Shown: positions 50,957-56,837 of the stretch, piece after piece | Layout: the number at the start of each line of letters is the position of its first letter | Position numbering within the stretch: the stretch's first letter is position 1 | Assembly (NCBI RefSeq): GCF_000230735.2 | Contig: NC_019962.1 | Coordinates: 2,790,001 to 2,854,000 of the forward strand | DNA length: 64,000 nucleotides | Source of the DNA: Natrinema pellirubrum DSM 15624 | Lineage (GTDB): Archaea; Halobacteriota; Halobacteria; Halobacteriales; Natrialbaceae | Direction of reading: 5' to 3' | Notes under the pieces: generated by a model | The model's input: only the letters and a program-made list of their open reading frames with translations | Database searches by the model: none | What the model was told of the DNA's origin: nothing | Translations under genes and position numbers: made by a program

Positions 50957-51814
50957 TCAGGGTTCGGACGGCGATTCGTCCGCGAGGGCGAGGTCGGCCA
51001 TCTCGAGCCACGGGTCGGCCGCCGATTCGGCGACGGCGAGTTCGACGAGCGGCCGGTCACAGTCCTCGCAGACGGCTCGAATCGCGACGCGGGGCCGCCG
51101 ACAGCAGTGATCGTGACGGTCGGCGGCGGTCGTCACCGCTCCGCCACAGATCGGACAGCGATCCCGGAGCAACCGGACCCCCCGCAGGAGGTCGCGGCGC
51201 TCGTCGATGGCGAGATCGTCCCACCCCTCGAGGCGGGCGCGAAGCAGGGGGGCCGCGGCGATGTCGGCCCGCAGCGTCGCGGTCGATTCCCAGCAGACGC
51301 GTTTACGGCCGTCGACGACGAACGCGGCGTCGTCGATCCGCTCGAGGTCGTCCGCACCCAGGATCGCTGCGACGGCGGCGGCGCTCGGTTCGGCCGGCCC
51401 GTCGCTCGAGCGGTCGTCGGCCCACCGCTCTCGGACGGCGGCGGTCGGTCGGAGGTCACCCGCCCGGTCGGTCGCGATTTCGGCAGCGAGCAGGACGTCC
51501 GTCAGCTCCGCGGGCGAGACCGTCTCGATCGTCGCCTGCGGCGACGGCGTCTTGCCGAACAGCGCGAGAACGCGATCGGGGAGGTACCGCCGGGTAAGCG
51601 TCGGCGTTCCGGGGAGCAGGTAGCCCCGGTAGCGGACGACGGCGAGACAGCCGGCGAGTACGAGCGCGCCGACCGACGGAGCGACGGCGATCCCCGCCGC
51701 GATCCCGGCGGCGACCGCGATTACGATGTTGACGGCCGTACACGGCCAACACCGGTTCTCACCGACGTACGCCGGCTGCTCGAGGCGCGTCCGGAGGTCG
51801 CGGAGATCGATCAC
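50957..51814 (-). CDS. Membrane protein with C-terminal zinc-ribbon-like cysteines
   Basis: A 285-residue protein, not recognised. The N-terminus has a cysteine pair (ENRCWPCTA), then hydrophobic segments (about 27-62). The middle is soluble. The C-terminal third has CPICGG, then a CC pair, then CEDC, which could bind zinc. It is convergent with fdhA, only five bases between stop codons, but no functional link is seen. Confidence 0.6.
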   Translation of the reverse strand: MIDLRDLRTRLEQPAYVGENRCWPCTAVNIVIAVAAGIAAGIAVAPSVGALVLAGCLAVVRYRGYLLPGTPTLTRRYLPDRVLALFGKTPSPQATIETVSPAELTDVLLAAEIATDRAGDLRPTAAVRERWADDRSSDGPAEPSAAAVAAILGADDLERIDDAAFVVDGRKRVCWESTATLRADIAAAPLLRARLEGWDDLAIDERRDLLRGVRLLRDRCPICGGAVTTAADRHDHCCRRPRVAIRAVCEDCDRPLVELAVAESAADPWLEMADLALADESPSEP

Positions 51815-52020
51815 CGGGTCTCACCCACGGAACGTACGGTCGCGAGGATCAAAAACGGGTATCGTCCCGTACGGGCCGATTACTGGGAAGTTCGATCCAG
51901 CGGACCGGCCTCCCGTCACGCGATAGGGTAGCCGTACAGTCTGTGCGAACGTTCCCGCGCAGCGACGGTCCCTCCGGTGGACCGTACACTCGTTTAGATG
52001 GACCCTATAGCTCCGGAATT

Positions 52021-52041
52021 CTTTGATAAGCATTATCAAAG
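52021..52041. promoter_or_regulatory. Palindromic site upstream of the PQQ operon
   Basis: CTTTGATAA-GCA-TTATCAAAG, perfect 9-base arms, ending 31 bases before ATG 52073. It spans the place where a TATA box or an upstream regulator would sit. Confidence 0.55.
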
Positions 52042-52056
52042 CACGTGATGGCGTTC

Positions 52057-52082
52057 TTTGTGCCGTGGTATCATGGCACAAA
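52057..52082. promoter_or_regulatory. Inverted repeat covering the start codon of the PQQ operon
   Basis: TTTGTGCC and GGCACAAA, perfect 8-base arms 10 bases apart. The start codon ATG 52073-52075 is in the spacer and the first base of the right arm. It could be an operator or an mRNA hairpin over the start. Confidence 0.55.
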
Positions 52083-52975
52083 TATCCACTGCGGCGAACA
52101 TGACAGCCGCGGAACAACGCGATCTGGCAGCGGTCCTCGGCGTCGACGATCCGTCGGACGGAGCGGTAACGTGGGCGGGGCTCGCGGGACAGATCGAACC
52201 GCGGTCCGACTCGTCATTTGCCTCCCGTGGCGAAGCGATTCGGGCCGACCTCGATGGGCGACTCGAGCGGGACCGACTCGAGCGGGAGCGGGCAAACATC
52301 GCGGATGCGATCGGTCGCGTACCGGCGGTTCGCGACGGCGGCGTCCCCGACGGGATGGACGGCCCGTATACCGCGCTGGCGGCACCGGGCTGGCGACTGT
52401 ACGACCACCTGCTCGAGGCGGGCTTCTTCGAAAGCCTCGACGAGAACCTGCCGCGGTTTACCGCGGGACACATCGAGACGACGGTCCGCGAACTGGTACT
52501 GGCGGAGCCGCTGTCGTCGGCGCTCGACGGCGTCGGGTTCGACGAGGCCGAGAAGACGGCACTGTTGACCGATGTCGCGAACAACAGCGAGCGGCTCGCG
52601 CGATGGGTGCCGTCGAACCAGATCCCGGACGGGGTCGAGTTCGAGACGGCGACCGTCCCGCCGCTCCACCAGCGCGCGATGGGCGGGGCTTTGCTGTGGA
52701 TCCGCGGGCTCGACAGGCACCTCAGCCAGTACGGGGTTCTCCTCACCGACGAGATCCTCGACGACGCAGTGCGGTACACGAAGGCGATGCTGGGCGGGCT
52801 GTTCGTGACGGCGACGGCCGCCTGCGATCTCGTCGGGGACCGACGGCTCACCGACGAACAGTTGACCGCCGCGTTCACCGCGGGGTCGGCCGTCCAGATT
52901 GTCGCCCAAGAGGAACTGTGTCACTCCGTGTTCTACATCACGGACGAGATGCGCGCCCCGAGCGAACTGCGGTGA
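52073..52975 (+). CDS. Unknown helical protein, first gene of the PQQ operon
   Basis: A 300-residue protein (MAQISTAANMTAAEQRDL; a later ATG at residue 10 is possible), not recognised. It is almost all helical, soluble, with RERANIADAIGRVPAVRDGG and a C-terminal part MGGALLWIRGLDRHLSQYGVLL. The only cysteines are in AACDLVG and EELCHS. No signal peptide. It ends four bases before the start of the quinoprotein and is therefore cotranscribed and probably needed for it, for example in maturation, cofactor delivery or regulation. Function is not known. Confidence 0.6.
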   Translation: MAQISTAANMTAAEQRDLAAVLGVDDPSDGAVTWAGLAGQIEPRSDSSFASRGEAIRADLDGRLERDRLERERANIADAIGRVPAVRDGGVPDGMDGPYTALAAPGWRLYDHLLEAGFFESLDENLPRFTAGHIETTVRELVLAEPLSSALDGVGFDEAEKTALLTDVANNSERLARWVPSNQIPDGVEFETATVPPLHQRAMGGALLWIRGLDRHLSQYGVLLTDEILDDAVRYTKAMLGGLFVTATAACDLVGDRRLTDEQLTAAFTAGSAVQIVAQEELCHSVFYITDEMRAPSELR

Positions 52976-52979
52976 TTCG

Positions 52980-54689
52980 ATGGCACTACGCAACGACAGG
53001 GCCGTTCAGGCCGCACGCGAGATCGAACTCCAAGAGACCGACGACGGCTATACGCTGGTCGGCGGACCCGATGAGGCGGTCACCGAACAACACGACACCG
53101 ACCGGATTCCCGAGGTCGACGTCGACCAGGAGATGCTGAGCGACACGGGCGAGGACCCCGAGTCCTGGCTCATGTACGGCGGCAGCTACGAACAACACCG
53201 CGCGACGCCGGCCGACGTCATCACGCCGGAGAACGTCGCCAACCTCGAGCTGGAGTACGAGCTGTCGGTCGGGACGGGCTCGAGCATGGAGGGGACGCCG
53301 ATCGTCGTCCCGGGCGACCCGCCGGTGATGTACCAGACGAACGGGCCGAACCACATGAAGGCGATCGACCCCCGCGAGGGCGAGATCCTGTGGAGCTACA
53401 CCTACGCGGTCCCGATGGGGGTCGAACTGTGCTGTGACGACAACAACCGCGGGGCCGCCGTCCACGGCGACACGGTCTATATGACGACGCTCGATTCGGG
53501 CGTCGTCGCGCTGGACCGCTACACCGGTGAGGAGCGCTGGTACACGAGTACCGCCGACCACGAAGAGGGGTACTCGGCGACGTGGGCACCGGTCGTCCAC
53601 GACGGGACGATCTACACCGGCAGCGCCGGCGGCGAGTACGGCGTTCTCGGATTCATCGCCGCAATCGACGCCGAGAGCGGCGAGATACAGTGGCAAACCG
53701 ACACGCTGCTCGAGGACGAGTGGGTCGGTGCGAGCCGCGAACACGGCTGTGGGACGAGTTGGATGACACCGACGATCGACGAGGAGGCGGGCGTCCTCTA
53801 CACGGCGGTCGCCAACCCCGGCCCCGACTTCGATGGCACGGTACGGCCGGGGCCGAACTTCCCGACCTGTGGAACGATCTCGCTGGACCTCGAGAGCGGC
53901 GAGTTCCAGTGGGGGTTCCAGAGCAGTCCCCACGACGTTTGGGACTACGACGCGGTCGCGCCGCGCGTGCTGATCCGGGACGTCGAGACCGACGACGGGT
54001 CGATGGACATGGTCGTCGGCTCGGACAAGACCGGCTGGGTGTACATGATGGACGCCGAATCGGGCGATCTCCACGAGCGCAGCGAGGAGATCTGCCAGCA
54101 TATCAATATGTGGGAGATGATCCCCCACATCAGCGAGGACGAACGCGTCGCGTTCGTCCCCGGCGCACCTGGGGGCAACGACTGGCAGCCGCCGTCGTAC
54201 AACCCCGAGACGGGACTGGTGTACGTGATTCACCAGAACTACCCGCAGGACCTCTACTGGCGCTACGAGGAGTACAGCGAGGGCAACCCCTACTGGGGCG
54301 GCGGGTTGGACGATCCGGCCAGCGAGTTCCCCGACGAGTGGAACGGCGCGATCACGGCCTTCGCGGCCGTCGATCCGACGACCGGCGAGCGCGTCTGGCG
54401 CGAGTGGATCGAGAGCGAGGACGACCACTACATGTGGGGCGGCTCGCTGTCGACTGCCACCGGACTCGTCTTCAACGGCACCCAGAACGGCACCTTCGTC
54501 GCCTACGACGGCGAGACCGGCGACCGCCTCTGGGAGTACGAGTTCGACGTGCCGATCAGTGCCTCGCCGATGAGCTGGTACGACCCCGGCGAGGGGAAAC
54601 AGTACGTCGCCGTGCAGGTCGGCGGCAGCGGCTGGCTCCGGCAGGGACCGCGCGGGGACACGCTCGCCGTGTTCTCGATGGAGGACTGA
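52980..54689 (+). CDS. PQQ-type quinoprotein dehydrogenase, atypical active site
   Basis: A 569-residue beta-propeller. Family hallmarks are the adjacent cysteines Cys151-Cys152 (LCCDDNNRG), Glu219 in GSAGGEYGV, Asn279 in VANPGP, a W-x-F-Q-S-x-P-H-D-V-W-D-Y-D repeat (near 311-324), and repeated propeller strands. In methanol-dehydrogenase-type enzymes RPGDN carries the catalytic Asp. Here the aligned stretch is RPGPN (Pro292), so the base is missing. No signal peptide is seen, unlike periplasmic relatives. It may act through another residue or bind PQQ for another task. It is cotranscribed with the cupredoxin after it. Confidence 0.82.
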   Translation: MALRNDRAVQAAREIELQETDDGYTLVGGPDEAVTEQHDTDRIPEVDVDQEMLSDTGEDPESWLMYGGSYEQHRATPADVITPENVANLELEYELSVGTGSSMEGTPIVVPGDPPVMYQTNGPNHMKAIDPREGEILWSYTYAVPMGVELCCDDNNRGAAVHGDTVYMTTLDSGVVALDRYTGEERWYTSTADHEEGYSATWAPVVHDGTIYTGSAGGEYGVLGFIAAIDAESGEIQWQTDTLLEDEWVGASREHGCGTSWMTPTIDEEAGVLYTAVANPGPDFDGTVRPGPNFPTCGTISLDLESGEFQWGFQSSPHDVWDYDAVAPRVLIRDVETDDGSMDMVVGSDKTGWVYMMDAESGDLHERSEEICQHINMWEMIPHISEDERVAFVPGAPGGNDWQPPSYNPETGLVYVIHQNYPQDLYWRYEEYSEGNPYWGGGLDDPASEFPDEWNGAITAFAAVDPTTGERVWREWIESEDDHYMWGGSLSTATGLVFNGTQNGTFVAYDGETGDRLWEYEFDVPISASPMSWYDPGEGKQYVAVQVGGSGWLRQGPRGDTLAVFSMED

Positions 54690-54716: not shown

Positions 54717-55835
54717 ATGTCGAACGAACAACGTTCACGCGACGACGTGTCTCGCCGCGGCGTGCTGCGAGGCACCGCGGCGATCGCCGGGACGGCAGCC
54801 GCCGGCACTGCGGGCGCGTACCGCGACGAGATCGATTTCCGGCTGCCGGCCACGCAGAACGACGGGGAGGGCCGAACCCTCTCGCTGCTGGGTATCGTCG
54901 GCGGCTGGGTCGGCGTCGCCCCCGCCGAGATCGACGGCCGCTCGAACCCGCCGCTGCGACTGATCGAGGGCGAAGACCACGAGATCGTCTGGACGAACGG
55001 CGATGGCTCGCGGCACAACTTCACCCTCGAGGACGAGGACGGCAACGTGATCGAGGCGACCGACTTCGTCGAGGAGCAGGGCGAATCGACCTCGCTGACG
55101 GTCACCGCCGAGGAGGGGATGGCGGGCTACTACTGCGTTCCCCATCCCGTCCAGATGCGCGGCCCGATCGAACTGATCGACGCCGACGAGGTCCACGAGT
55201 TGCGGGTACGGGTCGAAGACGAGAACGGCGACCCCCTCGGCGCGGAGGTGTTCGTCGGCGATCACCACTCCTTCTCCGACGTCGCCGCCAAACCGGGCCA
55301 ACAGGAAGCGGAAGCACCGCCCGCAGTCGCCCGCTTCGATATGCTCGAGGACGGGGAGTATGACGTCGAGGTCTGGACCTACGGCCACGAGCGACTGACC
55401 GACACGGTGACGATCGACGGCGACGACGCCGCGTTCACCGCCACCCTGTCTGCAACCGAGCCCGGCGACCCGGCCGAGACCTACTCGATGCGACTCGAGG
55501 AGGGACGCTGGGTCGGGGTCGGCCCCGACGCCATCGCCGACGAGGAGAACCCGACGCTCGAACTCGAGGCCGGCGAGACCTACGCCCTCGAGTGGGAGAA
55601 CGCGATCGGGCAACACCAGCCCGAAGGCGAGAACAGGACCTACGAACCGCTGCCCGGCCACAACTTCGTGATCGCCAGCGCGGGCGGGACGAACGAGTGG
55701 AACACCTACGTCCGTTCGGACTTCCTCAGCGAACAGGGTGAGACCCAGACCGTCGAGTTCGTCGCCGAGGAGGACATGGGCGTCTACCTCGACCAGTCAC
55801 AGCTCGACGCGGTCGGCGAGATCGACGTCCAGTAG
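54717..55835 (+). CDS. TAT-exported two-cupredoxin protein
   Basis: A 372-residue protein. SRRGVLRGTAAIAGTAAAG is a twin-arginine signal (Arg13-Arg14). Domain 1 (about 55-153) is a type-1 copper cupredoxin with ligands His100, Cys140, His143 and Met147 (YYCVPHPVQM). A middle domain (about 158-245) is beta-rich. Domain 2 (about 255-370) has the same fold with GHNF (His315) but GVYLDQSQL in place of the Cys-His-Met loop, so it has lost its copper. It starts 27 bases after the quinoprotein stop and is probably the electron acceptor or carrier of that protein. Confidence 0.8.
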   Translation: MSNEQRSRDDVSRRGVLRGTAAIAGTAAAGTAGAYRDEIDFRLPATQNDGEGRTLSLLGIVGGWVGVAPAEIDGRSNPPLRLIEGEDHEIVWTNGDGSRHNFTLEDEDGNVIEATDFVEEQGESTSLTVTAEEGMAGYYCVPHPVQMRGPIELIDADEVHELRVRVEDENGDPLGAEVFVGDHHSFSDVAAKPGQQEAEAPPAVARFDMLEDGEYDVEVWTYGHERLTDTVTIDGDDAAFTATLSATEPGDPAETYSMRLEEGRWVGVGPDAIADEENPTLELEAGETYALEWENAIGQHQPEGENRTYEPLPGHNFVIASAGGTNEWNTYVRSDFLSEQGETQTVEFVAEEDMGVYLDQSQLDAVGEIDVQ

Positions 55836-56788: not shown

Positions 56789-56837
56789 CGCTCCCGCGCG
56801 ACCCCACAAACGGCTTCCGGAACCGGTCGAACCCGAG

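Follow-up and report, generated by a model that had tools for sequence, protein, structure and literature searches.

A conserved palindrome in the promoter of a haloarchaeal quinoprotein operon is a putative regulator-binding site

What are two perfect inverted repeats doing in front of a quinoprotein operon of the haloarchaeon Natrinema pellirubrum DSM 15624? The first-pass annotation of the window (the whole stretch of 64,000 nucleotides analysed here) described the two repeats as nested and took them, together, to suggest that a regulator binds the promoter and that an RNA structure hides the start codon. The arms are indeed found where they had been placed (Table 1). The first repeat consists of perfect 9-nt arms around a 3-nt spacer, and the second of perfect 8-nt arms around ten nucleotides, such that the ATG of the first gene (52073-52075) straddles the junction between loop and right arm. 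The two are in fact arranged in tandem, side by side, and they do not behave as a single conserved unit.

Table 1. Positions, in the window, of the promoter elements, the repeats and the genes of the quinoprotein operon.
Feature	Position	Strand	Remarks
Box A, GTTTAGA (consensus ATTTAGA)	51992-51998	+	-81 to -75 from the ATG; AT-rich, candidate TATA element
GGAAnnC block	52015-52021	+	-58 to -52; conserved, abuts the palindrome
First inverted repeat, CTTTGATAA-GCA-TTATCAAAG	52021-52041	no strand	putative operator of a dimeric regulator; conserved in orthologous promoters
7-3-7 palindrome core, TTGATAA-N3-TTATCAA	52023-52039	no strand	-50 to -34 from the ATG; consensus of 20 loci
TTAT of the right half-site	52033-52036	+	-40 to -37 from the ATG; second candidate TATA box (TTWT), putative role
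Second repeat, left arm TTTGTGCC	52057-52064	+	mostly not conserved beyond close Natrinema
TGTG..GTG stretch	52059-52067	+	-14 to -6; conserved; putative transcription start region or ribosome-binding sequence
Second repeat, right arm GGCACAAA	52075-52082	+	overlaps the start codon and codons 2-4
Gene 1, all-helical protein of 300 aa	52073-52975	+	no Pfam or NCBIfam match
Gene 2, PQQ-type alcohol dehydrogenase	52980-54689	+	TIGR03075-like, below cut-off
Gene 3, halocyanin-like copper protein	54717-55835	+	domain searches

Perfect inverted repeats are common in this DNA. The window holds 12 with 9-nt arms and a spacer of at most 3 nt, against about 3.5 in a Markov null, and 104 with 8-nt arms and a spacer of at most 12 nt, against about 48. 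Finding such a repeat is thus unremarkable by itself, and this is especially true of the second. The first is the sole AT-rich member of the 9-nt class in the window. The annotation had also stated that neither repeat recurs in the window, and this remains so when up to 3 mismatches are allowed; moreover, the exact form of the first repeat occurs just once in the genome. It is conservation that makes the first repeat significant, and not its palindromicity.

To follow this conservation, we compared the upstream regions of the best 30 gene-1 loci, whose gene-1 proteins are 58-100% identical, together with 21 paralog regions from 20 further loci; relatives of gene 1 occur in 53 of the 125 genomes of the family. 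A copy of the palindrome is present in all 30 of the closest orthologous promoters. In 25 of them it stands at one fixed distance from the ATG, and in the other five this distance differs by 1-2 nt (for this count, the ATG of loci L013 and L014 was taken one codon downstream). At least 14 positions of the 17-nt consensus are matched in 23 loci, and 10-12 in the remaining 7; a weakened right half or other departures are seen in 7 loci. When 20 non-redundant loci are combined, the consensus becomes a perfect 7-3-7 palindrome, TTGATAA-GTA-TTATCAA. Arms of at least 7 nt arose somewhere in 95 of 2000 shuffled consensuses, so that the palindromicity of the consensus taken alone has p ~0.05.

The palindrome belongs to the middle one of three blocks that align in the 30 best loci: ATTTAGA at -81, GGAAnnCnTTGATAAGnATTATC from -58 to -36, and TGTG..GTG just before the ATG. 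Within Box A, the A at -77 is found in 19 of 20 loci and the T at -79 in 18 of 20. Over 18 loci, the best 17-nt upstream window reaches a mean pairwise identity of 0.77, compared to 0.45-0.61 in most other gene sets. Three control sets (c1, c4 and c5) score 0.83-0.99; their windows probably extend into coding sequence further upstream. One window upstream of an EamA gene is also highly conserved (0.86, 6 loci). The palindrome is absent upstream of the distant gene-1 relatives of the same family (21 regions, 20 loci), and it is absent from 20 upstream regions chosen from other families as a sample of the matches.

Two further observations concern palindromes in this set of loci. In L084 (G072:C3:1112506-1113401), gene 1 is split over two frames and the adjoining gene, which encodes a fusion of a winged helix-turn-helix (wHTH) to an NMT1 domain, is partial; the palindrome is intact. 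Elsewhere in the window, a TCCGGAA-centred palindrome (56813-56824) stands just before an EamA-like gene (minus strand, start ~56809) and is conserved in 6 related loci.

How many such sites does a genome contain? A sequence profile of the block, built from 13 loci and searched against 125 genomes, recovers the gene-1 promoter in 28 of 30 genomes, G009 and G022 being missed; of the 17 genomes that had no part in its construction, it recovers 15. Across the 125 genomes it returns 14 further matches elsewhere, the best at E 0.008, the true sites ranging from E 1e-6 to 0.11. A search with the exact pattern gives 15 non-orthologous matches, and 13 for the reversed control. With the profile, one strong site is found per genome, and it is always the gene-1 promoter. 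We rejected the idea of a global-regulator site on these grounds: the site is single in each genome and non-orthologous exact matches stay at control level. No second site was found in the genome, and none before any candidate regulator gene, which is unusual for a repressor that regulates itself.

Do these conserved positions act as DNA or as RNA? A reading in which both repeats function as mRNA structures and the start codon is masked by the second appears very improbable to us. It draws on the leader of this species, which folds better than its shuffles: the second repeat reaches -16 kcal/mol (z -4.3 for a 40-nt piece, z -3.9 for a 76-nt piece) and the ATG is paired within an 11-bp stem. 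To this extent, the proposal that the start codon is hidden holds in this species; as a conserved mechanism, however, it fails. At least 7 of the 8 pairs of the second repeat are kept in just 6 of 30 loci, the pairs being lost outside a few Natrinema, and swapping leader and coding sequence between loci gives p values of 0.11, 0.046 and 0.13 for energy and of 0.052 and 0.23 for stem length. RNAalifold finds no consensus structure in the leader of 20 loci. Pairs of the first repeat are broken without compensation at several positions, one of them in 15 of 30 loci, and Rfam has no match within 51850-52250 up to E 1. With a transcription start some 12 nt upstream of the ATG, a large part of the left arm would even lie outside the mRNA. 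In the absence of conserved or compensated pairs, of a consensus fold and of an RNA-family match, we reject an RNA hairpin for the first repeat and keep it as a DNA site. The second is left unproven and is set aside as a conserved structure, given its retention in so few loci and its weak swap values; it is probably an incidental hairpin of this species without a conserved role. A DNA element could nevertheless be conserved for reasons other than a dedicated regulator. A study of haloarchaeal promoters (PMC4983044) describes the TATA box as TTWT and the BRE as CGAAA, with an additional -10 WW element; the TTAT of the right half-site fits TTWT and ATTTAGA is an alternative TATA element. Our mini core-promoter profile, made from 212 predicted upstream regions, was too noisy to separate the two candidates. 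Whichever of them is the TATA box, the palindrome would fall inside the core promoter. The whole block might then be a strongly constrained core promoter, a BRE and TATA box used perhaps by one TFB/TBP pair, its symmetry incidental. Besides the fit of TTAT at -40 to -37, this idea is consistent with the fixed distance to the ATG, as expected of a TATA box in a short-leader gene, and with AT-rich boxes seen by eye about 35 nt before the ATG of related genes in other families. Still, the two halves are conserved to about the same degree, the left one, TTGATAAG, does not correspond to the BRE motif CGAAA, and in these genomes the profile picks up no other promoter that carries the block. We thus regard a core promoter without a dedicated regulator as unlikely.

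The reading that we favour, and that we hold to be somewhat probable, is that the first repeat regulates the quinoprotein operon in cis as a DNA element: a homodimeric regulator, probably of the winged-helix kind, would bind its 7-3-7 palindrome within the core promoter. Regulator binding, as the first-pass annotation had proposed for this repeat, gains support from the conserved sequence, the palindromic consensus, the fixed spacing and the single site per genome. Against the reading count the p value of just ~0.05 for the palindromicity by itself, the departures in 7 loci, the high conservation of the EamA upstream window and the lack of a further site in the genome or at a candidate regulator gene. 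The repeat is conserved as a sequence in orthologous promoters, as the operator of a dimeric repressor would be. We envision that the dimer would dock on the palindrome and keep basal factors or the polymerase off the promoter. With Box A as the TATA element, the palindrome would lie over the transcription start; with TTAT in this role, it would cover the TATA box itself. Since a dimer bound in the core promoter would hinder initiation, repression is the likeliest effect, and a signal connected with the oxidation of alcohols or with the cofactors of this reaction may relieve it.

Which genes would be controlled in this way? Among 40 loci in which the neighbours of gene 1 were compared, gene 1 adjoins the dehydrogenase gene in all 40. 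A structure model of the gene-1 protein is all-helical and confident (pLDDT 88.8); Foldseek returned no match to it at E <= 0.001, and the VIA-align matches stay below Z 7, the range for which the tool itself warns of helical bundles. The best PDB relative of the gene-2 product is 6zcv, named a quinoprotein ethanol dehydrogenase, which we take to be PedH, and the WDYD motif of gene 2 aligns with WDFD of 6zcv. In lanthanide-type enzymes, the catalytic Asp is followed two residues later by another Asp. Gene 2 has this additional Asp, and it also has a vicinal Cys-Cys, as in lanthanide-type PQQ enzymes. A search for PqqE in this genome gave matches below the cut-off only, and no Pfam family matches the product of the gene that diverges from gene 1 (50957-51814, minus strand).

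Several other features of the surrounding gene families are worth recording. Two NMT1/THI5-fold proteins are encoded at L135:5491-7425 (G000:C1:555490-557424), with similar ones in L136-L144, and in several loci cupin and VOC-like genes adjoin them. Each of the 53 genomes with gene 1 has NMT1 homologs, as do two others; a cofactor or uptake module for the quinoprotein is a possible role for these genes. Between the cupin and NMT1 genes of L135, L136, L142, L143 and L144, a conserved TGATAAACGTATC(A/G) is found next to a TATA-like box; it resembles the palindrome of the window, with a half-site spacing one base shorter. In the paralogous operon of L085 and L086, a hairpin about 26 nt before the aligned start of gene 1 takes two forms, GTGTGTG/CACACAC in one genome and GTGCGTG/CACGCAC in the second, which differ at a single pair, in both of its bases. 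Another paralog class (L090-L096) has a conserved leader, GTTGG..GCATGG, upstream of gene 1, and in several of these loci a 17-codon mini-ORF was seen by eye, whose stop overlaps the gene-1 start (ATGA).

Can a protein be matched to the palindrome? The best lead is a small ArsR-type protein (G000:C1:1511886-1512155; L141:8860-9171), present in 52 of the 53 genomes with gene 1 and in none of the 72 others, a co-occurrence whose Fisher value ignores shared ancestry. It carries an ArsR wHTH domain and scores 71.3 bits against NCBIfam NF033788 (ArsR/SmtB metalloregulators; cut-off 55), and it has ArsR relatives in the PDB. In 13 of 30 genomes, no more than 13 kb separate its gene from the palindrome operon; in 11 the same holds for a paralogous quinoprotein operon, and in 6 for neither. 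However, the protein is also present in genomes whose only such operons are palindrome-free paralogs, its own upstream region does not contain the palindrome, and co-occurrence is evidence of membership in a module rather than of binding. That it binds the palindrome is therefore a tentative proposal, possible and on the unlikely side. Another specific form of the favoured reading is less probable still: the regulator could be the wHTH-NMT1 fusion protein, which combines a MarR_2-like N-terminus with an NMT1 binding domain and whose gene lies next to gene 1, in divergent orientation, in 13 of the 30 palindrome loci (in one as a fragment). Against it, 9 of the 30 genomes (G042, G043, G048, G069, G070, G073, G076, G077 and G078) have only NMT1 proteins of 32-35% identity at E <= 1e-30. 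Those examined among them show by eye no HTH at their start, and the palindrome is still kept in these genomes.

What would such a site mean? Judged by its sequence, the first repeat belongs to a common type of element, a putative regulator site, and its setting is unusual and little studied; we found no haloarchaeal study of such an operon or of its control in the open-licence literature. The palindrome offers a precise target of 17 bp with which the regulator of alcohol oxidation by haloarchaeal quinoproteins could be sought. In addition, the co-occurrence of the ArsR-type protein, the NMT1-fold proteins and the helical gene-1 protein suggests a functional module, of which we found no description in the open-licence literature.

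How does the site compare with known systems? Like the mRNA hairpins that sequester a start codon, the second repeat can pair the ATG in a long stem; unlike them, it is not conserved and has neither covariation support nor an Rfam family. The first repeat in turn recalls a Fur box, which is 7-1-7, TGATAATnATTATCA: read as 7-1-7, the site becomes TGATAAG-C-ATTATCA, with one position different. A Fur-type site was rejected because the conserved spacing is 7-3-7 and because FUR proteins do not track the operon; the family is above its cut-off in 15 of 125 genomes, and the match found here in Natrinema stays under the curated threshold. A third comparison is with archaeal winged-helix repressors, for example of the TrmB, MarR and ArsR types, whose palindromic operators overlap the TATA box or the start site. 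The palindrome shares with these operators a short inverted repeat with half-site centres ~10 bp apart, its predicted place in the core promoter and its conservation among orthologs; it differs in being a single site per genome, with none at a regulator gene. At the far end of what we envision, and a long shot, the palindrome would serve a dedicated archaeal switch as its operator; the switch, possibly the ArsR-type protein, would sense a lanthanide, PQQ or the alcohol substrate and control a haloarchaeal lanthanide-type quinoprotein operon. If true, it would be the first counterpart in archaea to the lanthanide switch of bacteria.
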